Source: Candidatus Tectimicrobiota bacterium
GTDB taxonomy: Bacteria; JACPUC01
Length of the DNA: 20,607 nt
Reading direction: 5' to 3'
Assembly (NCBI GenBank): GCA_016192455.1
Contig: JACPUC010000024.1
Coordinates: forward strand, 1 to 20,607
Part shown: positions 1-20,141 of the stretch, in pieces
Layout of the letters: each line of letters opens with the position of its first letter
Position numbering within the stretch: the stretch's first letter is position 1
Translations under genes and position numbers: made by a program
Notes under the pieces: generated by a model
Told to the model about the DNA's origin: nothing
Seen by the model: only the letters and a program-made list of their open reading frames with translations
Database searches by the model: none

Positions 1-1005
1 CAGGCGCAGGAGGCGGCTGCCGGGGCGGTCGCCGGGCTCCCCCAGCGGCGCCGCGGCGCGCGCCTCCAGCCGCCCCGTGAAGCTCGGCCCCAGGTGCAGC
101 CCGGCGTTGCGGTGGCAGTGCAGGCACTGCGAGGTCGGCACCCGCACGGTGATCGTGTGCCGCTCGGGATGCCCCGGCTTCTCGCGGTCGAGCGTGGGGT
201 CGCCGCTGCGGCTGCGGCCGTCGTCGGCGTAGGGGACGTGGCAGGCGGTGCAGCCGCTGCCGCGATAGCGCCCGAAGCTCGCCTCGCCGCCGCTCCAGAG
301 GTGGCAGGAGAGGCAGGCGCGCCGCAGCAGCGCGTCGGCGTGCGAGGCGCCCGCCCCCGGCAGCTCCTCGATCTTCTCAGGAGCCGCCGGCGGCTGCTCC
401 CCTGACGGGCTGGGCAGGGCGCGGACGCCGCGCGTCCCGTAGCGCGGCGCCGGGCTCTCCTGCGCCCCCCAGAGGTAGCGCAGCGTGTTGATCTCCCCCG
501 CCGCCGTCGCCATGCGCGAGCGCAAGCCGCGGTTCACGTGGTCGCGCTCGCTGCGGGACACCACGCGCGACACGTCGCGGACGTTCGGGATCAGGCCCTG
601 CACATCGGCGCGCAGCTTGCCGGTGTCGCTGTGGCACTGGCCGCACGTCTGCTCCACCACGCGGTAGTCGCCGGGATCCGCGTGCATCCCCTGGTGCGCC
701 GCGTCCTTCGTGTTCGCCGTGGGGTTGCCGGCGTGGCAGACCTCGCACTTCGTATCGGCGCCCCACGTAAGCGCCATCGCCTGATTGATCGACTCGATCC
801 CTTCGTGGCAGCTCAGGCAGCGTTTCCGGCTGGCGACCTCGGGATCGACGCGGTCGAAGCGCTGCGCGGAGGCTGCGCCCTCCGGGTGGATGCCGCCGCC
901 GGCGGGAGCCTGTTGCGCCGCCGCCAGGGCTGCGCCGGCGGCAAGGCCGGCGAGCAGGAGGAGGGTCGAGAGGACGCGGGAAACAGTGCGGCGGCAGGGA
1001 TTCAT
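1..1005 (-). CDS. Periplasmic multihaem c-type cytochrome (at least six haems), 3' end beyond the window
   Basis: The open frame runs 335 codons without a stop and leaves the window at base 1, so the C-terminus is missing. The N-terminus is a Sec-type signal peptide: Arg-rich start, a Leu/Ala core at about residues 11-28, and an Ala-Ala-Ala cleavage region near 30. Six CxxCH haem sites are visible: CLSCH 63, CEVCH 87, CGQCH 121, CLSCH 231, CTACH 252 and CLHCH 294. They form two groups of three, with a haem-free stretch of about 100 residues between. The start ATG overlaps the stop of the upstream tetrahaem gene (ATGA), so the two are translationally coupled. It should be a periplasmic electron carrier or terminal reductase subunit for the Rieske/cytochrome b complex. 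The exact family is not recognised, and the truncation prevents a total haem count. Confidence 0.9.
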   Translation of the reverse strand, partial: MNPCRRTVSRVLSTLLLLAGLAAGAALAAAQQAPAGGGIHPEGAASAQRFDRVDPEVASRKRCLSCHEGIESINQAMALTWGADTKCEVCHAGNPTANTKDAAHQGMHADPGDYRVVEQTCGQCHSDTGKLRADVQGLIPNVRDVSRVVSRSERDHVNRGLRSRMATAAGEINTLRYLWGAQESPAPRYGTRGVRALPSPSGEQPPAAPEKIEELPGAGASHADALLRRACLSCHLWSGGEASFGRYRGSGCTACHVPYADDGRSRSGDPTLDREKPGHPERHTITVRVPTSQCLHCHRNAGLHLGPSFTGRLEARAAAPLGEPGDRPGSRLLRL

Positions 1006-1835
1006 GCTCCCTCCTCTGGCTGGGGGGCTGGGCGGCTGCGGGATGGCAGGAGCGCGCGCGGCATCTCCAACTTCGTGAGGCTCAGCATGTAGATCGTCAG
1101 CGCGGTCGCCTGCGCGTCATTGAGGCGGAAGTCGGTCATCGGCGAGTTCGGCTGGAAGGTGCGGGGGTCCTTGAAGTGGCGCAGCAGCCAGATGGGCAGG
1201 GTGCGGGGGCCGGTGTCGTCCCCCCACATGAGGTCTTCGGGCGCCTTGCTCCCCACGCCCGCCAGGTCGGGGCCGACCTGGCGGCCGCGACCATCGAGGC
1301 GGTGGCAGTTCCGACAGCCGTACACCTCGAAGAGCTGGCGTCCCTCCTCGAGGAGCGGCGCCTGCGTCGGCAGCGGTTCGCGATGACACTGGCCGCAGGC
1401 GGCCTGCAGGTAGACGCCGCGCAGCAGCGGCTCATCCCAGAACGGCGCCTCGCCGTGCGCCTCGGGCACCTCGGTGGCGCGGCCCTGGCCGCGATGGCAG
1501 AGGGTGCAGCCGAACTTCTCCATGGGATGCTGGGCGTGAACCGGGCGGAAGCGGAACATCGGCGGCGCCTCCTTGGCGCGCGGGTCGGCAACGCCTGGGT
1601 GGCAGGTCGTGCACCGATCCAGGCGCCGCAGCGCCTGCACGCCCACCTGCTGGAGCCCGGAGAAGCGCTGTGCTTGGAGCGAGGCCGGCGTTGTCTCCGG
1701 CGCGGCGGCGCGCAGCCAGTCATGGTACGCCTCCTGGTAGCGCAGCCAGGGCGGATTCAGCTCCCGCACCACCCAGGCCACGGAGATGGCGAGGAGGGCG
1801 ATGCTGGAGAGGATGAAGACTTTCTGGAAGCTCAT
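1002..1835 (-). CDS. Membrane-anchored tetrahaem cytochrome c of the Rieske/cytochrome b operon
   Basis: This 277-aa protein has one N-terminal membrane helix (about 6-23) that probably stays uncleaved as an anchor. Four haem motifs follow: CTTCH 75, CTLCH 110, CGQCH 147 and CRNCH 174. The last lies in a class-I cytochrome c fold with a GPDLAGVGSK stretch downstream and a likely methionine ligand in SPMTDF (Met233). The first three haems precede it in a region with extra histidines. It probably replaces cytochrome c1/f as electron acceptor from the Rieske centre and passes electrons to the multihaem cytochrome encoded next, whose start it overlaps. The gene begins 75 nt after the cytochrome b stop. 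The C-terminal tail is Pro/Arg-rich and has no haem site. Confidence 0.92.
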   Translation of the reverse strand: MSFQKVFILSSIALLAISVAWVVRELNPPWLRYQEAYHDWLRAAAPETTPASLQAQRFSGLQQVGVQALRRLDRCTTCHPGVADPRAKEAPPMFRFRPVHAQHPMEKFGCTLCHRGQGRATEVPEAHGEAPFWDEPLLRGVYLQAACGQCHREPLPTQAPLLEEGRQLFEVYGCRNCHRLDGRGRQVGPDLAGVGSKAPEDLMWGDDTGPRTLPIWLLRHFKDPRTFQPNSPMTDFRLNDAQATALTIYMLSLTKLEMPRALLPSRSRPAPQPEEGA

Positions 1836-1910
1836 GCCGCCGCCCGCCGTCCCCTCTGGTTCCAGCGCCGCGCGACGCCGCCAGCCGCCCGCGTCGCCAC
1901 GCCTCCTTCG

Positions 1911-3176
1911 TTACCACGGAACCGTGAAGCGCCAGTTCGGCCCGCGGAACAGCGTGCCGAGGATCGTGATGATGGTGAAGAAGAGCAGGACGGCGGTGAA
2001 GAGGACGACGGCGCGCCACCGCTGGGACGCACACCACTCCCCCACGCCCCGCGGGCTGCGATCGAAGTAGGGCAGGGCCATGAGGACCAAGCTCACGACG
2101 GTCGGCACGATGACGCCGCCGATGATGGGAGGTCCCCAGGAGAGCATCTCTTGCAAGCCGAGGAAGTACCACGGCGCCTTCGCCGGATTCGGGGTCTTCT
2201 CCGGGTCGGCGAGCTGCTCGAGCGGCGCGTCGAAGACGAACGAGATGATGAGGAGCAGCGCCAGCGCCGCAATCGCCACGGTAAACTCTTTGAAGACGAG
2301 GTGCGGGAAGGTCATGACGAGGTTCTCTGGCTCGCGCTCCGTGATCACCGGCACACCGCGCGGCAGGGCCACCAAGTCGTAGGTCTTCAGCGGCGCCTCG
2401 GGGCGGGGACGGTCCTCCTCGTTGTCGTCGAGGTCGAGAACGATCGTCGTCAACTCGCTCTCCGGCATGGAGATGCCGCCGTCCTTGCGCACCCGCCAGA
2501 CGTGGATGCCCATGAGCAGCCCCATGATGAGCGGCAGGAAGAAGACGTGCAGCGCGTAGAAGCGCAGCAGCGCGTTCTGCCCGATGTGCTCCGCGCCGAG
2601 GAGGAGCTCGCGGCCCCATTTGCCGATGAGCGGCGCCGTCTGCAGGATTTCGGTGCCGACGTTGATCGCCCAGTAGGCGAGCTGATCCCACGGCAGCAGG
2701 TAGCCGGTGAAGGCGAGGCCGAGCGTCAGCACGAAGAGGGAGAAGCCGACGACCCAGTTGAACTCCCGCGGGCGCTTGTAGGCGCCGGTGTAGAAGACGC
2801 GGCAGAGGTGGAGAAGGACGATGATCACCATGCCGTGGGCGGCCCAGCGGTGCAGGTTGCGCAACAGCCGCCCGTAGGGGACGGTGAAGCGCAGGTCTTT
2901 CATGAGGTCGTAGGCGACCTCCGTCGAGGGGACGTAGTAGAGCATGAGGAGGCCGCCGGTGATGGTGAGCACCGCGAAGAGCAGCACCGCCAGGCCGCCC
3001 AGCCCGAACGTGTAGGTGAAGCGCAGGGCGTGCCGCGGAATCTTTACCGGGTGGAGGTGGAGGAAGAAGTTATTGGTGATGACGAGCGCCTGGTTGAGGC
3101 GCGTGTTCGGCCACCCATGACGCACGATGGAGGCGATGAGGCGGTTCTGGCGCAGGCTGTCGAGGAAGGGCTTCAT
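1911..3176 (-). CDS. Cytochrome b, fused b6 + subunit IV type, of a quinol:cytochrome c oxidoreductase
   Basis: This is the membrane quinol-oxidising subunit, 421 aa. The N-terminal half (about 50-230) has four helices with the bis-His pairs for two b haems: His109/His123 and His210/His225. The second pair is 15 residues apart, as in cytochrome b6; mitochondrial-type cytochrome b has 14. The C-terminal half (about 295-410) has three helices like subunit IV, so b6 and subunit IV are fused. The Qo-site PEWY position reads APWY (334-337), followed by FLGLQE, a pattern I associate with menaquinol enzymes. A charged loop of about 60 residues (231-290) joins the halves. It lies 53 nt after the Rieske gene and before the tetrahaem cytochrome, which is the expected bc-complex order. 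Menaquinol rather than ubiquinol use is inferred. Confidence 0.95.
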
Positions 3177-3229
3177 GACGCCTCAGGCTCGGCCCGGCTG
3201 AGACTCACGACGAGCCCAGGGCGGGGCAA

Positions 3230-3740
3230 TCACGAGGTCCGGGGACCATGCACATCCAGGCGCTCCTGGCGCGAGACTGGCCGGCTTACATCGGCGACGA
3301 GCTGCCCGTTCGTGGCGAGCTCCAGGCGGAAGTAAGGGAGGTCCCGGCGCGCCGGCCCGCGCAGCACCTTGCCGGCGGCGTCGAAGCGGCTGCCGTGGCA
3401 CGGGCACTCCAGCAGCCCGTGCGAGGCGTTCCAGCGGACCACGCAGGCCAGGTGCGTACACACCGCCGACATGGCGGCCAAGCCCTGCGCATCATGTTTC
3501 ACGAAGACCTTCGGCGCCGCGACGTAGTGCAGGGAGTGGTTGGCGTAGCGGTCCGCTCCGCCGAGCGGCACGCGCGTCCGCTCCTTGTCGAGCGGCGGCG
3601 GGCTGGAGAAGCGCAGCAGCGAGTAGGCCGCCAACCCTGCCGCCCCCACCAGGCTGCTCCAGCCGAGCACACGGAAGAGCTCGCGGCGGGGAATGGTCAG
3701 CTCCTCGGGCGCAGTCAGCCGCTCTTCATCATCACGCTGG

Positions 3741-3760
<20 letters not shown>
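3230..3760 (-). CDS. Rieske [2Fe-2S] subunit of the bc-type complex
   Basis: From the ATG at 3760 the protein is 176 aa. A GGGAGG ribosome site lies about 10 nt upstream, and this start removes an Arg/Trp-rich extension that is antisense-like. A PRRELFRVLG stretch (24-33) precedes the single membrane helix (about 34-50) and resembles the twin-arginine signal usual for Rieske proteins. The cluster-binding motifs are complete: CTHLAC at 101-106 and CPCHGS from 119, giving two Cys and two His ligands. The start overlaps the end of the FAD oxidoreductase gene by 20 nt, so translation is probably coupled. It should move electrons from quinol at the Qo site to the c-type haems encoded downstream in the operon. 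Confidence 0.95.
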
Positions 3761-5581
<1,821 letters not shown>

Positions 5582-5582
<1 letters not shown>

Positions 5583-7531
5583 TAACGGCCCCCCTCGGGA
5601 GAGACGGAAAGGAGCGCCGCGGGGATGCTGCCGGCGCCCGGAGGTTGCTCGCCGCGCGGCGAGCTCTCGCTCGCCCCGTTCGCGGCCCAGTCATCGGGCG
5701 GCGGCGCGCTTCCAGGTGGCCGCGTGCCGAAGTCGCCATGCTCGATCTCGGCATGGCAGGCGAGGCACGCCACCTTCGGCCTGGTGAAGTCGGTGTTCTG
5801 GCTGACATGCCGGTCATGCAGGAACTGCACCTCGCCCAACTTGGTGAGGTCCTCGTGACAGTCCAGACAGCGAGCCCGCGCCACCTGTCCGTCCCCGCGC
5901 ACGGTCAGGCGCTGGGTGAGCTCGCGCTCGCTCAGGGTGCGGTGGCAGCTCGTACACTTGCCAACCGCCGTCTCCTGCTGCGGCCTCCGGTTCATGAAGT
6001 GACAGAGGTAGCAGTTTCGGAAATCCGTGGCAAAGTGTTCGCCGCGCACGTCGCGCGAGTGGCAGGTGTTGCACTGCAAGCGAATGCCGCGCGCGGGCTG
6101 GGCCAGCATGGTCTGGTGATTGAAGTTGAGCGTGTTGGTGCGGAAGGTGATGGCGCGGTAGAGCTTCTCCGTGCCGTGGCACCCCCCCTGCTGGCAGGAA
6201 CGGCTGTCGACGTTGCCGTGGGACTTGGTCGGATAGAAGCCGGTGACCTGCTTCGCCGCCATCAGCAGGCCCGCCGTGCGCCCCTTCACGAAGGAGCTCA
6301 GGTCGGGCGGGTAGTGGCAGTCGACGCAGCCGACGTTCCGGTGCTTCGAGGTCTTCCAGGTGTCGTACTGCGTCTGCATCGTGTGGCACGAGCCGCAGAA
6401 CGACGGGCTCTCCGTCACCTGGTTGACGTAGGAGAAGGCCATGCCCACGATGCCCAACATCAAGGGGAGGAAGAGGAGGAGGACGCGCTGCCAGTGCAGG
6501 CTGAGGCTGCGCGCCAGCGACCAGCTCCAGCGGAACGTCCGCCTCAGGAGCGGGTAACAGAAGATGACGCCGGCCAACAGGAGGCCGTAAAGGAAGGAGT
6601 TGACCAAGGTGCCGTAGAAGCGGTCTTCGGTGACGCGGATGAAGTGGGAGGCCAGGATGCCGAGGGCAAGGACGACGAGGTAGAGGGACTCCTCGGTGCG
6701 CCGCCGCCAGAAGACCGCCGCATTCACCAGGGCGCCGAGGAGGACGACCGGCAGGACGGCGCCAGGGGTGCCGCTCACGTAGGCCACGAGACCGCAGGCG
6801 AGGACCAGCGCCACCGCGGCGGTGAAGCAGACCGTCGCCAGGGCCTGCCGACCGCGCCAGTCGAGGGCGACGGCGGCCCCTGCGAGGGGGAGGGCGGCGA
6901 ACGCGACCAGGAGCACCGGCGGCAGCCCCGCGCTGAGCAGCGGCGCCGCATAGCGCCAGCTCAGAGTGGCGCTCAGCAGCACGCCGAGAAGATGCCAACG
7001 GTTCCCCTGCCGTCGCCAGACGATGAGATAGAGCCCCGCGAGGAGCAGGAAGCCGAGGCCGCTGATCGCCAGCGCGGCGCCGGAAGCAACGATCCCCGCC
7101 TCTGCCGGCGGAGGCGCCGCGCCGGGGGCGCCCGCCGCCGCCGCGAAGACCCCCCCCGGCACCTCGGCAAGGGTCAGGAGGCTGGCCGCCGCGGCGGTGA
7201 TGGAGGCCGCCGCAAAGCCGGCGCGCGACACCGCGGCGTTGCCGCGCAGCCCAACAGCCTGCCAGGCCGCGAGGAGCGGTAGCATGCCGAGGGCCTGCCA
7301 GGGTGCCGGCAGCGCCTGGCGCAGCGCCAGCACGTACGCCGCCGAGGTGAAGAGGAGCGCCGGGTAGAGGTAGCCCGCGGAGCGGCTGGCGCGGTAGGCT
7401 GCGACGTACGCCGCCGCCGCCACCACCGCGAGAAGGATGCCCCCCGCCAGCAGGCGCTCGTAGACCGCCCACGCCACCAGCGCCGCCGTCAAGCCGTAAC
7501 TCAGCGTCTGGTAGGTGGCGCGCAGATTCAC
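5582..7531 (-). CDS. Polytopic membrane protein fused to a NapC/NrfH-like octahaem cytochrome domain
   Basis: The protein has 649 aa and starts with GTG, which overlaps the preceding TGA; a GGGAGG site lies about 6 nt upstream. Residues 1-370 hold roughly ten hydrophobic helices without recognisable cofactor motifs. The last helix (about 350-370) leads into a NapC/NrfH-like start, CGSCHTM at 379, where the CxxCHxM form suggests Met ligation as in NrfH. Further haem sites are CVDCH 402, CNTCH 487, CYLCH 507, CTSCH 526, CLDCH 555 and CLACH 589. A CQQGGCH (CX4CH) at 446 makes eight in total. The tail after 600 is Pro/Gly-rich. A role as quinol dehydrogenase or membrane electron conduit is likely from the NapC-like part; the function of the helical part is unknown. 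Confidence 0.85.
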
Positions 7532-9474
7532 GGCCTGCCTCCCTGCGGAGCAACCTGCGGGGCGGCTGTCGACGGCGCCGCCGGCAGGGCCAGGGCGCCG
7601 AGCAGGAACGCGACCGCCCAGAGCATCAGCGCGGCGAGGTTCCAGGGCATCAGGAACAGCACCTCATAGAGCGACAGGCCGGCGGCGGTCAGCACGGCAA
7701 CGGTGAGGAGGGCCTGCCAGGGGCTGCCGCGGCGCCGCAGGCGCACCTCCTGGAGGAGCGCCAGGAGACCCAGGAGAGCGAACAGCATCCCACGGGAGAC
7801 GGGGTGCAGGGCCAAGGCCGCGCCGAGGGCCGCGAGCAGGTAGGCGGCAAGCACGATCACGAAGTAGGAGAGGTCGAGAACCGGGCGTCCCCGCGCGCGC
7901 AGCACCAAGATCGAGTAGAGCGCTCCAAAGGCCAGGCTGTGCAGGGCTGCCCAGAAGAGCGAGATGCCCTCGAGAATGCCCGCGGCGATGAAGAGGGCAG
8001 CCACGAAAGCGTGGCTGGCCTCGTAGCAGGAGCGCGACAGCTCCTCGCTGCTGAAGCGCGCCCCGCAGCCGAGGAGGACGCCCAGCAGCGGCAGGCCGAG
8101 GAACAGCTTGACGTGGAAGGCATGGCTCGGCGCCGCCAGGAGGAGTGCGCTCAGCGTCGCCCAGGTGTAGAACGCCGCCGCAACGAAGAGGTACTGGCTG
8201 CGCCCGCGCAGGGCGGTGGGCAAGCGCCACATCGCCAGGCGGCCGTACACGAGCGCGAGGAGGAGGGAGCCCACCCAGCCGAGGGTGGAGCTGCGCAGGG
8301 CGCTGGCGAGGAGGAGGAACGCCGCCAGCGCCGCTGCGAGGTGGCCCGCAATGAGGAGCCACCAGACCGCCGCGCCGGCCCCCGCCACGCTGCCGCGCCG
8401 CGCGTGGAGAGTGCCGGCCAGGGGGAAGTACGCTGCCGTGAGGAGGATGCAGGTGAGGAGCAGGAGTGACGGCCGGCCGAGCGCGGCAAGGAGGGCCACC
8501 GCCGCCAGGAGGAGGCTTGCCGCGTAGCGGGCGCCGGCGGCGCGCGCGCCGGCGCGGGCGTGTTCACCCACCGCCAGCCAGGCCCACAGCACGCCGCCCC
8601 CGGCAAGGAGGAGGGGGCGCAGCTCCGCCGCCGCCCGCGGCAGCAGCCAGAGGCCCAGGGCGTAGCCGAGCGAGCCCAGCCCCACGGCGAGGTAGCGGTG
8701 CGGCAACCACGCCGCGCCGGCCGCCGTGGCGCCCTTCAGGAAGCGCCACTCGAAGAACGCCGCGGCGCCGAGGAGCGGCGCCACCACGGTGAAGATCGGA
8801 TGGCCGTCGCTGCGCCAGGTCGCGCTCCATAGCGACCACATCCCCCAGACCGCGAAGAGGAGCGCAACGACCGCGCCGACGCGCAAGAGCATGCGGCGAG
8901 GATCGAAGCGCCGCGCCGCATCGGCCTCTCCCCGGCGGCCGCACCACCAGCCGAGAAGACCCAGGAGGCCCACCGGGGCGAGGGCCGCCGTGGGGAGCAT
9001 CCAGCTTACGGCGCCCACCGCCAGCACGGCGAGGAGGTACCCCACCACCGCCAGCCCCAGACCGCCGTAGAAGAGGCTGCGGCGCTGTCCCACGAGGCCC
9101 AGGACGAGGCAGAGGGCGGCGAACAGCCCGAGCACCGCGGCCGAGTCCGCGGCGTGCTTCAGGAGGTAGGCGCTGCTGCCGAAGACGAGCGCGCCGCTGA
9201 AGAGCAATGAAACGGCGACCGCCACGCCGGTGAGGCGCGTCTCCAGGTCGGCCTGGCTCAGGTACCATTTCACGTAGAGGAAGGGGAAGAGGACGGCGTA
9301 GGTGAAGGAGGGCCAGCTCAGGGCAAGGCGCAGGATCGATCCGATCTCGTTCGGCGAGACGTAGAGCTGCGACGGCATCTCCAGGGTGGTGCCGTGCATG
9401 ACCAGCTCATCCTCCTCGCGGGCAATTGACTCAATCTGCACCTCGGTGCGCACGAAGCTTGAGATGAGCTCCAT
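7528..9474 (-). CDS. Large polytopic membrane protein of unknown function, first gene of the respiratory operon
   Basis: I do not recognise this 648-aa protein. A hydrophilic, acidic N-terminus of about 45 residues is followed by some 18-20 predicted hydrophobic helices rich in Leu, Ala and Trp. No haem, flavin, Fe-S or transporter motif is visible, and no tryptophan-rich haem-handling (WWD) motif like that of CcsA/CcmC. A strong GAGGGGGA ribosome site lies about 5 nt before the ATG. Its stop overlaps the GTG of the octahaem gene, so it is the coupled first gene of the operon. The next protein also has a long helical region, so the pair may form a membrane scaffold for the electron-transfer complex; this is inference from context only. 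Confidence 0.75.
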   Translation of the reverse strand: MELISSFVRTEVQIESIAREEDELVMHGTTLEMPSQLYVSPNEIGSILRLALSWPSFTYAVLFPFLYVKWYLSQADLETRLTGVAVAVSLLFSGALVFGSSAYLLKHAADSAAVLGLFAALCLVLGLVGQRRSLFYGGLGLAVVGYLLAVLAVGAVSWMLPTAALAPVGLLGLLGWWCGRRGEADAARRFDPRRMLLRVGAVVALLFAVWGMWSLWSATWRSDGHPIFTVVAPLLGAAAFFEWRFLKGATAAGAAWLPHRYLAVGLGSLGYALGLWLLPRAAAELRPLLLAGGGVLWAWLAVGEHARAGARAAGARYAASLLLAAVALLAALGRPSLLLLTCILLTAAYFPLAGTLHARRGSVAGAGAAVWWLLIAGHLAAALAAFLLLASALRSSTLGWVGSLLLALVYGRLAMWRLPTALRGRSQYLFVAAAFYTWATLSALLLAAPSHAFHVKLFLGLPLLGVLLGCGARFSSEELSRSCYEASHAFVAALFIAAGILEGISLFWAALHSLAFGALYSILVLRARGRPVLDLSYFVIVLAAYLLAALGAALALHPVSRGMLFALLGLLALLQEVRLRRRGSPWQALLTVAVLTAAGLSLYEVLFLMPWNLAALMLWAVAFLLGALALPAAPSTAAPQVAPQGGRP

Positions 9475-10658: not shown

Positions 10659-11111
10659 TTAGATGCAGGAGAGCGGCACCGACGGCGTGCACTCGAACTT
10701 CGCGGCGACGCTGCTCGGCTCCGGCTTCTTCACGGGGCACTTGATGTCAGACCTCAGCACCAGCCCCTCCTCGCCGCGATGTCTGCCGCTCAACACCTGC
10801 ACGAACGTGAGGCCGGAGTAATCGTAGCGGCTTTCCTTGACAACGACATTCTCCATGATGGAGAGAGTAAAGCGGGTGCAGCATTTCAATGCTTCCCGCA
10901 AAAGTTTCGCCGACTCCTTGTGGTCGCCGGTGTCCTTCGCCCCGATGGCGGAGGAGAAGAGGGCGACAAACCTTTCCGCCTTTTTCGGCTCGATGACGGG
11001 GATCGAGACCTGCTCCACCGTGCACGCCTGGGCGCGCGCCTCGGAGGCGGCGAAAGGAGCGAGCAGCAGGGAGAAGAGCAGGAGAAGCAGAAAGCGTGTG
11101 GTACTGGTCAT
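10659..11111 (-). CDS. Small secreted cysteine-containing protein, hypothetical
   Basis: The 150-aa product has a clear Sec signal peptide: MTSTTR, a Leu-rich core at 8-19, and cleavage probably after ARA near 27. The mature part of about 120 residues has six cysteines (30, 77, 78, 125, 141 and 149), an even number that could pair as disulphides. Neither CxxCH nor Fe-S spacing is present, so it is not an obvious redox-cofactor protein. GGGGGA about 9 nt before the ATG is a plausible ribosome site. It is convergent with the 9920 gene, with 88 nt between stops. I do not recognise the family. Periplasmic or extracellular location is the only supported statement. Confidence 0.7.
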   Translation of the reverse strand: MTSTTRFLLLLLFSLLLAPFAASEARAQACTVEQVSIPVIEPKKAERFVALFSSAIGAKDTGDHKESAKLLREALKCCTRFTLSIMENVVVKESRYDYSGLTFVQVLSGRHRGEEGLVLRSDIKCPVKKPEPSSVAAKFECTPSVPLSCI

Positions 11112-11312: not shown

Positions 11313-11364
11313 AAAAAAACCCCCTCCGCGCCGATGGCTTTACGGGCCATCACGACGGAGGGGG
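11313..11364 (-). terminator. Strong rho-independent terminator after the selenoprotein gene
   Basis: On the minus strand CCCCCTCCG (11364-11356) pairs with CGGAGGGGG (11328-11320). An inner stem GATGGC/GCCATC closes a TTTACGG loop, and seven T residues follow (11319-11313). The hairpin starts 43 nt after the TAG reached by read-through of the in-frame TGA, which supports that longer reading frame as the real gene. Confidence 0.9.
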
Positions 11365-11407
11365 CCTTCTTCCAGCTCCAACCATCACTCCCAGGCGGCG
11401 TCGCGGC

Positions 11408-11896
11408 CTAGCCGTAAACGCGGTCGATCTCCGCTTGAATCTGGCGGGGGGCGGAACCTTTCTTCGTCATCTGGTACGCTAACTGCGCCTCACCAATGCA
11501 AGTCCCTCAGCCGGCGCCGTGGCGCGTGGCGAAGCAGGTCAGCAAGCTCTTGTGCCCGAAGTTCTCCTTGCAGCGGCAGTAACAGTAGAGCTGGTCGAGC
11601 ACCTGCGGGATTTCCGCGGCGCGCTGGTAGGCCACCGCCGCCGCGCCGCTGAACAGGCCGGCGCTGAGCACCGGCTGCGTCTCGCGCAACTTGTAGGGTT
11701 CGGCGGGTCCCGCCGTTTGCGGCGCCAGGGCCACGGACGGACGGTTCCGCCGCACCAAGGCGGTTGCCCCCAACCCAAGGGCCACCACGGCGCCGAAGGC
11801 GATCCCCAGCCAGCGCCGCCGACTCACCGCCGGCTGAGGCGGCGCAACGTCCTTTTTCTTCTCCCCTGTTCCTTGCCTCCTGCGCGACTTGCCCAT
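11408..11896 (-). CDS. CYCXC-family protein, probable selenoprotein (in-frame TGA = Sec130)
   Basis: Translation from ATG 11896 follows an excellent AAGGAGGT site 5 nt upstream. The product has a Lys/Arg-rich start, a twin-arginine-like SRRRWLG and one helix (30-48), then YCYCRC at 104-109 and GHKSLLTCF at 114-122. A TGA at 11509-11507 would stop it at 129 aa. Reading on gives U-G-T-C (130-133), then GEAQLAYQMTKKG and QIQAEIDRVYG, ending at TAG (11410-11408), 162 aa in total. From memory, relatives (CYCXC/PCYCGC type) carry CxxC, a GEA/AY helix and an I..ID..Y end at this place, so TGA replaces the first Cys of CxxC. TGA is an ordinary stop elsewhere in the window, so a code change is excluded. 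It is likely an exported thiol/selenol or metal-binding protein; function unknown. The alternative is a nonsense mutation. Confidence 0.82.
11482..11509 (-). promoter_or_regulatory. Possible bacterial SECIS hairpin just after the in-frame TGA
   Basis: In the minus-strand RNA, ACUUGC (11503-11498) can pair with GCG-C-AGU (11488-11482), with one bulged C and a U-G pair. The 9-nt loop is AUUGGUGAG, and its G residues lie 13-14 nt after the UGA. Bacterial SECIS elements sit in this place, but the loop G is usually in the first two loop positions and slightly farther away, so the match is only partial. Confidence 0.35.
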
Positions 11897-11964
11897 GGAA
11901 CCTCCTTCGGCCAGATGTGCGTCGCGAACTCTCACCCTGGAATCGCTCTCAATCATCAGCAAGG

Positions 11965-11993
11965 ATCATACCGACACGAGCGCGCCTCGCCAA
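11965..11993 (-). promoter_or_regulatory. Sigma70-type promoter of the selenoprotein gene
   Basis: Minus strand: TTGGCG (11993-11988) and TATGAT (11970-11965) are separated by 17 nt, a good match to the -35/-10 consensus. The start would be near 11958, giving a leader of about 62 nt before the ribosome site. The remaining sequence up to the gmd stop (11994-12226) shows no gene. A GC hairpin at 12179-12201 lacks a T run. Confidence 0.65.
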
Positions 11994-17311: not shown

Positions 17312-17656
<345 letters not shown>

Positions 17657-17671
17657 TCAAGGCATGCCACC

Positions 17672-17700
17672 TATATAGTTACGCCCCTGCCTTTTGTCAA
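17672..17700 (-). promoter_or_regulatory. Sigma70-type promoter of the ferredoxin gene
   Basis: On the minus strand a perfect TTGACA (17700-17695) is followed after 17 nt by TATATA (17677-17672). The start would lie near 17665, giving a leader of about 65 nt. This is the best promoter match in the window. Confidence 0.8.
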
Positions 17701-18155
17701 AGGCAAAGGCCGCGTTGCCCAGAAGTTCCGCCCCTCCTTGCGCCCACCCGCACCCGGCACCCCCCCACACCTGCCCTCGTGGCAGAGATCATGAGGGTGG
17801 CGCGCCCGGCGGCATGCGGCAAGACTCCCCACGGGGCTGCTGGACGGCTCCGCCGGACTCGCCGAGAACGCCGCACAGGTGGTCGCAGCCGCTTCGGCTC
17901 CCTCTGGCATGCCAGGGAATCGCTCTCCAGGTCAGGAGTCCAAGCCAGCCGTATGCTTGTATAGTGAAGCCGCCACTGCTCTGCAAGGGCTATGTGGGGA
18001 GTGCCTCGCAGGGAAACGAGACCGCCTGGAAGAGCCTCTGCAAGCCTTCCCACAGTTCCGCAGACCGCGCCCCTCACCCGCCGCGGAGGCAGCGCCGCGC
18101 TGCCTGTCGCAGCCCTCCTCCGCAGCCTGCGCTTCCGGCTTTCATCTGGGCGCCA
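17701..18155. other. Gene-free gap between ferredoxin promoter and the Hdr-like gene
   Basis: No credible gene is seen; the frames here are Arg/Pro-rich and lack ribosome sites. A 7-bp GC hairpin with a 3-nt loop (18088-18104) lies after the Hdr-like gene but has no T run, so it is only a weak terminator candidate. Confidence 0.4.
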
Positions 18156-20141
18156 CTACGGCAGCAGGTGCCGGGCCACGATCTCCGCCACGTCGAGCGG
18201 CGCGATCTGCTCCTGGGCGCGCTTTGCGGCCACCGCCTCCTCGAACATCTGTATGCAGAAGGGGCAGGCGGCGGCCAGGGTCGGCGCCTTGGTGTCGAGG
18301 GCCTCCTCGAGGCGGGTGACGTTGATCTTTTGGCCGACCTGCTCGTCCATCCAGGCGTGGCCGCCGCCGGCGCCGCAGCAGAGGGCGCCGCGCCGGCTGC
18401 GGCGCATCTCCACCACCTTTCCCGACAATGCCCTGAGGATGGCGCGGGGCTGCTCGTAGATGCCGTTGTACCGCCCCAGGTTGCAGGGGTCGTGGTAGGT
18501 CACGGGGCCGAGGGCGTCGCGGTCGAGGCGCAGCCGCCCTTCCTGTATGAACCGCTCGATGAGCTGCGTGTGGTGCAGCGCCTCGAAGCTGCCACCGAAC
18601 TCCGGCGCCTCGTTCTTCCAGGTGTTGAAGCAGTGCGGGCAGGCGGTGACGAGCTTCTTTACATTGTAGCCTTTCAGGGTCTCGATGTTCTGCCGCAGGA
18701 GCGTCTGGAAGGTATACTCGTTGCCCAGGCGGCGCGCCGGGTCGCCGGTGCAGACCTCCTCCTCGCCCAGGCAGGCGAAGCTCGTGCCGCTGGCCCGCAG
18801 CAGGCGCGCGAAGGCCTGGGTGATCTTCTGGTTGCGCTCCACCAGGGCGCCGGTGCAGCCGACCCAGAAGAGGTACTCCGGGCGGGCGCCCTCGGCCAGC
18901 AGCGGGATGTCCATCCCCTCCATCCAGCTCGTGCGGGTGAACTGCGTGCCGCGCCAGGGATGGGCGCGCGTCTCCAGGCACTGCAGCGTGGCCTCGACGG
19001 TCTCCGGCATGCGCCCCTCGACGAAGACGAGGTTGCGGCGCATCTCGGAGATCTTGCCGAGGTGCTCGATGAACACCGGGCACTGCTCCTCGCAGGCGCC
19101 GCAGACGCGGCACTCCCACAGCACCTCGTCCTGGATGACGCCGCCGACCATGCGCTCCTCCTGGCGCCGCGGCGAGTGCAGGTGCGCCTGCAGGTCCAGG
19201 ATGAGCTGCTTGGGGTTCAAGACCTTGCCGGTGACGGTGGCCGGGCAGTTGTCGGAGCAGCGGTCGCAGCGCGTGCAGGCATCGAGGTCGAGGAGCTGCT
19301 TCCAGGTGAAGTCCTCCACCCTGCCGGCGCCGAAGGTCTCGGCCGTCTCAATGTCGGGGATGCTGCGGAAGGCTCCCGGGGGCTTATAGCTGCGCAGGAA
19401 GACGTTGGCCGAGGAGATGAAGACGTGCATCATCTTCGACCAGCCGAAGTAGGCCAGCAGGGCCATGGAGAGGACCATGTGCCCCCACCAGGCCAGCGCG
19501 TGCAGGCGCGTCGCCGCCGCCGGCGACAGATTCAGCGCCAGCAGCGTCTTGGCCGTCACGTAGCCCAGGGGCGACCAGCGCGCCCAGTCCGGGTGCCGCG
19601 CCACTTCCGTGGCGGCGACGCGCGCTCCCTCGACGAGGAACCCCGTGGTCAGGACGACGAAGAAGAAGAGGAGCGACAGGCCGTCGTCGAGGAGGTTCGT
19701 CCACTCCTTCGCCTCGTTCGAGCGCAGCCCGTAGCGCCGCCAGGCGGCCATCAGCACGCCGAGGAGCGCCAGGCCGCCGAAGAGGTCGAGGATGAGCGAG
19801 TACCAGAGGTAGAACGTCCCTTTCAGGTAGTGGATGCCGCTCCACTCCTGCACGGCGATCATGCAGGTGCCGATGAAGAGGACGATGAAGCCCCAGAAGA
19901 TGCAGAGGTGCAGAACGCCGGCGTAGGCGTTGCGGATGACGCGCCGCTGCATGACGACGTAGACGAGGACGTCCCACAGGCGGCGCCCGAGGTGGTCAAG
20001 GCGGTCCTCCGCCGTGCCGAGCCGCCAGCGCCGCCAGCGCGGGTAGATCCCCGCCAGCAGCACCGCCAGCATCACCAGCGCGAAGAGGTAGACCAGCCCG
20101 CCGTAGCTGATGTTCCAATAGATCTCGCGGGTCGGGGTCAT
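18156..20141 (-). CDS. Membrane b-haem/Hdr-like Fe-S oxidoreductase, probable ETF:menaquinone oxidoreductase
   Basis: The 661-aa protein fuses a NarI/DsrM-like membrane part to an HdrD/DsrK-like part. Residues 10-250 have about six helices with candidate b-haem histidines (His78, His214, His221, His239). Two ferredoxin clusters follow, CTRCDRCSDNCP (289-300) and CRVCGACEEQCP (344-355). Two CCG-type domains come next: VGCTG 428 with CTGDPARRLGNE from 464 and CPHC 501, then CNLGRYNG 553, CCGAGGG 588 and CPFC 626. This architecture is that of EMO-type proteins that pass electrons from electron-transfer flavoprotein to menaquinone in beta-oxidation. No etfAB is adjacent, so the partner may be elsewhere or the role may differ (lactate or sulphur metabolism). 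AAGGA lies 8 nt before the ATG. Confidence 0.87.
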   Translation of the reverse strand: MTPTREIYWNISYGGLVYLFALVMLAVLLAGIYPRWRRWRLGTAEDRLDHLGRRLWDVLVYVVMQRRVIRNAYAGVLHLCIFWGFIVLFIGTCMIAVQEWSGIHYLKGTFYLWYSLILDLFGGLALLGVLMAAWRRYGLRSNEAKEWTNLLDDGLSLLFFFVVLTTGFLVEGARVAATEVARHPDWARWSPLGYVTAKTLLALNLSPAAATRLHALAWWGHMVLSMALLAYFGWSKMMHVFISSANVFLRSYKPPGAFRSIPDIETAETFGAGRVEDFTWKQLLDLDACTRCDRCSDNCPATVTGKVLNPKQLILDLQAHLHSPRRQEERMVGGVIQDEVLWECRVCGACEEQCPVFIEHLGKISEMRRNLVFVEGRMPETVEATLQCLETRAHPWRGTQFTRTSWMEGMDIPLLAEGARPEYLFWVGCTGALVERNQKITQAFARLLRASGTSFACLGEEEVCTGDPARRLGNEYTFQTLLRQNIETLKGYNVKKLVTACPHCFNTWKNEAPEFGGSFEALHHTQLIERFIQEGRLRLDRDALGPVTYHDPCNLGRYNGIYEQPRAILRALSGKVVEMRRSRRGALCCGAGGGHAWMDEQVGQKINVTRLEEALDTKAPTLAAACPFCIQMFEEAVAAKRAQEQIAPLDVAEIVARHLLP

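Follow-up and report, generated by a model that had tools for sequence, protein, structure and literature searches.

An in-frame UGA predicted to encode selenocysteine in a CYCXC-family gene of Candidatus Tectimicrobiota

The window analyzed here is the whole 20,607-nt stretch of contig JACPUC010000024.1. On its minus strand, at positions 11408-11896, lies a gene of the CYCXC (PCYCGC) family, whose reading frame opens with an ATG at 11896, runs through 129 codons to a TGA at 11509-11507, and continues for another 32 codons (11411-11506) to a TAG at 11410-11408. Read through, the frame yields a 162-residue product in which the TGA would specify selenocysteine (Sec) 130, the first residue of a UxxC motif; the second, Cys133 (11498-11500), is invariant in the CYCXC family. 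The CYCRC motif at residues 105-109 (11570-11584) contributes three further invariant Cys, and a membrane helix is predicted near the N-terminus (residues 26-50; 11747-11821) from the AlphaFold2 model and from hydrophobicity judged by eye. The Shine-Dalgarno sequence AAGGAGG (11901-11907, minus strand) stands four bases upstream of the ATG, and a sigma-70-like promoter candidate, TTGGCG-17-TATGAT (11965-11993, minus strand), is proposed from its match to the consensus. An intrinsic terminator (11313-11371, minus strand; a hairpin with a T run, MFE -40.8, z -6.05) begins about 43 nt past the TAG; because its loop is long, a simple terminator scan gave no match here, and it was revealed by direct folding. 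The first-pass annotation had placed the TGA, the 32 additional residues, and the TAG at exactly these coordinates, and had described a strong terminator about 43 nt after the TAG rather than near the TGA.

An adjoining gene (10659-11111, minus strand) encodes a 150-amino acid protein that seems to have a signal peptide and matched neither Pfam nor NCBIfam. Much of the remaining window (1-9474 and 17312-20141) is a respiratory gene cluster, comprised of multiheme cytochromes, cytochrome b, a Rieske protein, a FAD/4Fe-4S oxidoreductase, a NapC-like cytochrome, and a CCG-domain iron-sulfur membrane protein. Scanning the window with Rfam and ARAGORN returned no matches.

The read-through product belongs to a family that is already listed among selenoproteins. 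Its score with the NCBIfam model NF041379, "CYCXC family (seleno)protein," is 119.2 bits, above the cut-off of 90, and the match covers residues 74-161 and thus crosses the TGA; this is the NCBI model to which the first-pass annotation had referred. Both motifs of the family are present, CYCRC at residues 105-109 and UGTC at 130-133. The C-terminal domain also matches PF13798 (PCYCGC; Pfam) above the gathering score, at 43.3 bits, although the Pfam family takes in Cys-only PCYCGC proteins, whereas the window protein has CYCRC together with the predicted Sec. The family was formerly termed OS_HP4 and has since been renamed CYCXC family protein, with the motif UxxC; two reviews list it in this way (PMC9312934; PMC13188914) and cite for it the work of Zhang and Gladyshev (2007) on the Delta1 symbiont of Olavius algarvensis.

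A search of other genomes provided 28 distinct homologues in which the site can be read; L021 and L026, apparently the same contig, were entered once, and L052 was excluded for a run of N within the gene (a TGA is nonetheless seen at its site). The 40 comparison genomes are all related to the source genome at the level of the same domain only. Opposite the window TGA, the homologues carry TGA in 21 of 28 cases, from 21 other genomes in several phyla, and TGC or TGT in the remaining 7 of 28. Alignment at residue 130, which the first-pass annotation had proposed as a check, therefore gives Cys or TGA throughout (28/28), and the in-frame UGA lies opposite the presumed redox Cys of the Cys-form homologues with both flanks conserved. 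The segment beyond the TGA is conserved at the protein level: a profile built from the post-TGA segments of the 28 homologues alone found 11506-11411 at E 5.3e-15, as the sole significant match among 438 six-frame fragments, and a profile restricted to the seven Cys-encoding homologues still found it at E 2.3e-12. The coding potential after the TGA is therefore independent of any assumed read-through.

These comparisons also bear on the possibility that the TGA acts mostly as a stop, with a functional 129-residue CYCRC protein as the main product and read-through as a minor or selenium-dependent event. Sec insertion and termination compete in known systems, and the CYCXC motif does lie upstream of the TGA, so that a short form would retain it. 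Homologues ending at residue 129 without the C-terminal segment had been named in advance as evidence against read-through; none of the 28 ends there, and the C-terminal helices are conserved in the Cys forms too. We consider a predominant short form very unlikely.

Downstream of the UGA, a SECIS-type hairpin is predicted at 11464-11501 (minus strand), with a 4-bp upper stem GCGC/GCGU (11488-11485 and 11479-11476), an apical loop AGUUA (11484-11480), a spacing of 22 nt, and an energy of -10.6 kcal/mol. Published limits for bacterial SECIS elements (bSECIS) are a loop of 3-9 nt, an upper stem of 4-16 bp, a G in loop positions 1-2, a spacing of 16-37 nt, and an MFE of -7.5 or lower (PMC13188914), and the window hairpin, with G second in its loop, falls within all of them. 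Its energy is unremarkable (z -0.84 against dinucleotide shuffles), and 89% of synonymous recodings of the window sequence fold equally well or better. In the window, the family stem has lost two of its lower pairs, for which the prediction substitutes a bulge and a GGU/ACC stem. No covariation occurs in the stem, which is uninformative because the stem hardly varies.

The comparative evidence is stronger than the energy. A covariance model built from the 21 other Sec forms, with the window left out, recovers 11509-11456 at 37.5 bits (E 1e-8), a score owed in part to coding similarity. The pattern GCG-x-x-GCG around the loop is kept in all 22 Sec forms (window included), a count that, like all of the comparative counts on hairpin and codons given here, is inflated by kinship among the sequences. 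Among the Sec forms, the two Ala codons of the stem (GCG) and codon +8 each have a synonymous identity of 1.00, and the mean is 0.81 over the hairpin codons vs. 0.53 elsewhere; in the Cys forms, the same three positions have values of 0.27, 0.19, and 0.17. The Leu codon that supplies UUA of the loop is TTA, used for just 1 of 575 Leu codons in the other genes of the window, and the next Ser codon after the loop region is TCT in 19 of the 20 Sec forms with Ser there, a codon that accounts for 1 of 222 Ser codons in the window genes. Judged from sequence comparison, the hairpin is thus under a SECIS-like constraint.

Hairpin codons vary freely in most Cys forms, with two exceptions: the homologues L030 (6322-6375) and L035 (3436-3489) still carry the SECIS hairpin sequence, which fits the expectation after a recent Sec/Cys exchange and suggests that one took place. 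In a separate subgroup (L038, L045, L049, L051, and L052), UxxxC occurs instead of UxxC (UENYC, UINIC, UIDIC), and the SECIS hairpin is accordingly displaced by 3 nt relative to the UGA.

The source genome (G000; 4.46 Mb in 31 contigs, 88% complete) has the full set of genes for Sec decoding: selB (366 bits) adjoins selA (596 bits) on contig C23, the Sec tRNA (selC) is found on contig C8 (75.5 bits; anticodon TCA by ARAGORN), and selD on contig C3 (389 bits). A genome search for these four genes had been suggested in the first-pass annotation, with absence of selB or selC as the adverse outcome, and all four are present. The SelD protein (L018:1501-2421, contig C3) is itself a selenoprotein, with an in-frame TGA and Sec in VAGUAAKLGPGDL. 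Two other candidate selenoproteins in this genome were rejected: formate dehydrogenase alpha is a Cys form and therefore not a further Sec user, and FlpD gave no match.

It could be argued that the TGA arose through an error in sequencing or assembly, or that a Cys codon recently underwent a nonsense mutation, such that the gene is a pseudogene or encodes a truncated 129-residue protein. The sequence does come from a single MAG of unknown coverage, and the window copy of the SECIS has lost two of the lower stem pairs. However, TGA occupies exactly the same codon in the 21 other genomes, the Sec machinery is complete, and the hairpin codons are kept, including the near-unused TTA, while the Shine-Dalgarno sequence, the conserved C-terminus, and the terminator after the TAG are all intact; an error or mutation is less probable still than a predominant short form. 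A code in which TGA specifies an ordinary amino acid (e.g., Gly or Trp) would account for an in-frame TGA inside a conserved gene, but its probability is negligible, given that the aligned residue is Cys rather than Gly or Trp, that tRNA-Sec, SelA, SelB, and SelD are present, and that TGA, whose use as a normal stop elsewhere in the window had been noticed at first reading, ends 5 of the 11 other window genes, which excludes general reassignment.

We therefore regard it as very probable that this gene encodes a genuine CYCXC/PCYCGC (OS_HP4) selenoprotein of 162 residues, and infer from the sequence that Sec is inserted at UGA 130. Decoding would occur via SelB and tRNA-Sec, aided by the hairpin 22 nt downstream, and translation would truly end at the TAG. 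The product is predicted to be anchored in the membrane near its N-terminus and to have a small helical domain, in which CYCRC, one further Cys, and two invariant His accompany UGTC, which may form a redox-active pair. Its predicted site of action is beyond the cytoplasmic membrane, where it would serve as a thiol/selenol redox protein, possibly handling metal or heme, with a predicted role in the assembly of respiratory cytochromes, perhaps as a distant CcmH-like protein.

The AlphaFold2 model (mean pLDDT 84) has one long N-terminal helix (26-50) followed by a helical domain (73-162), and the invariant residues of the family include eight potential ligands (C105, C107, C109, H115, C121, H126, C/U130, and C133). 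A sequence search of solved structures gave no match, and a Foldseek search with the model returned nothing below E 0.001. Structural matches on a second look included two domains of CcmH, which has a three-helix periplasmic fold: 2kw0 (Z 4.4) and 2hl7 (Z 4.3). These values are not decisive, since helical bundles reach them by chance. Alignment of the family with CcmH proteins by hhalign gave a P-value of 1e-4 in the C-terminal helix region, with none of 100 column shuffles as good, and a probability of 57-64% over just 26 columns; with the CxC-type CcmH subset alone, the score was weaker and was equalled by 1 of 100 shuffles. The Pfam CcmH model (PF03918) has no match listed in 26 family members at E up to 1.

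Gene neighborhoods add further context. Rieske and cytochrome b genes are found near the gene at the L022 and L026 loci, and cytochrome b with a ResA-like redoxin at L023; the Rieske gene of the window itself lies 7.7 kb downstream of the CYCXC gene. CcmH occurs near the homologue at L032, the neighbors at L036 are ResB, a cytochrome c assembly protein, a redoxin, and DsbD, and DsbA is a neighbor at L045. Many Rokubacteria-type loci have, as a neighbor, a large membrane polyferredoxin that carries a Fer4_5 domain. The source genome also encodes two CcmH-type proteins, L067 and L072 (contigs C22 and C20), of which one contains ICQCGCN, a CxCGC motif that recalls PCYCGC proteins, and the other lacks the usual CxxC.

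Because of the weak profile and structural similarity and the gene neighbors, our best guess, of modest confidence and somewhat short of even odds, is that the protein serves cytochrome assembly in a CcmH-like manner, through thiol/selenol chemistry outside the cytoplasm. Like CcmH, the window family has a membrane-anchored small helical domain, a Cys motif before helix 2, the C-terminal pattern G-x-(S/T)-x-x-x-I-x-x-x-(Y/F)-G, and similar genomic company; it differs in matching no Pfam CcmH model and in its extra Cys/His residues and UxxC, and the similarity is weak by both hhalign and structure. The main rival, which concerns function only, is that the family is not a CcmH-like thiol reductant but a metal (e.g., copper) chaperone, with the invariant Cys/His residues making up a metal site. 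The eight invariant potential ligands and the neighboring genes for respiratory metalloproteins are in its favor; Sec, however, is usually a redox catalytic residue, and the weak CcmH similarity and thiol-redox neighbors favor thiol exchange, and we consider a chaperone somewhat less probable.

The window gene is a further example of the known OS_HP4/CYCXC kind of selenoprotein, which it resembles in a profile score above the cut-off, in CYCXC and UxxC, and in the position of Sec, and from which it differs only in sequence divergence (35-54% identity between its product and the homologues) and in the two changed pairs of the lower SECIS stem. A gene caller that stops at the TGA would drop 32 residues, including the active-site pair. 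More broadly, the comparative set reveals a SECIS element frozen across the family, together with repeated Sec/Cys exchange. The neighborhood and the weak similarity to CcmH also provide a testable idea on the function of the CYCXC family: tentatively, CYCXC/PCYCGC proteins may be a distant, selenium-using offshoot of CcmH, serving as a periplasmic selenol reductant or heme-handler in cytochrome c/bc-complex assembly in multiheme-rich bacteria. We hold this more doubtful than the general CcmH-like role, and, if true, it would assign a function to a family that is listed as being of unknown function.
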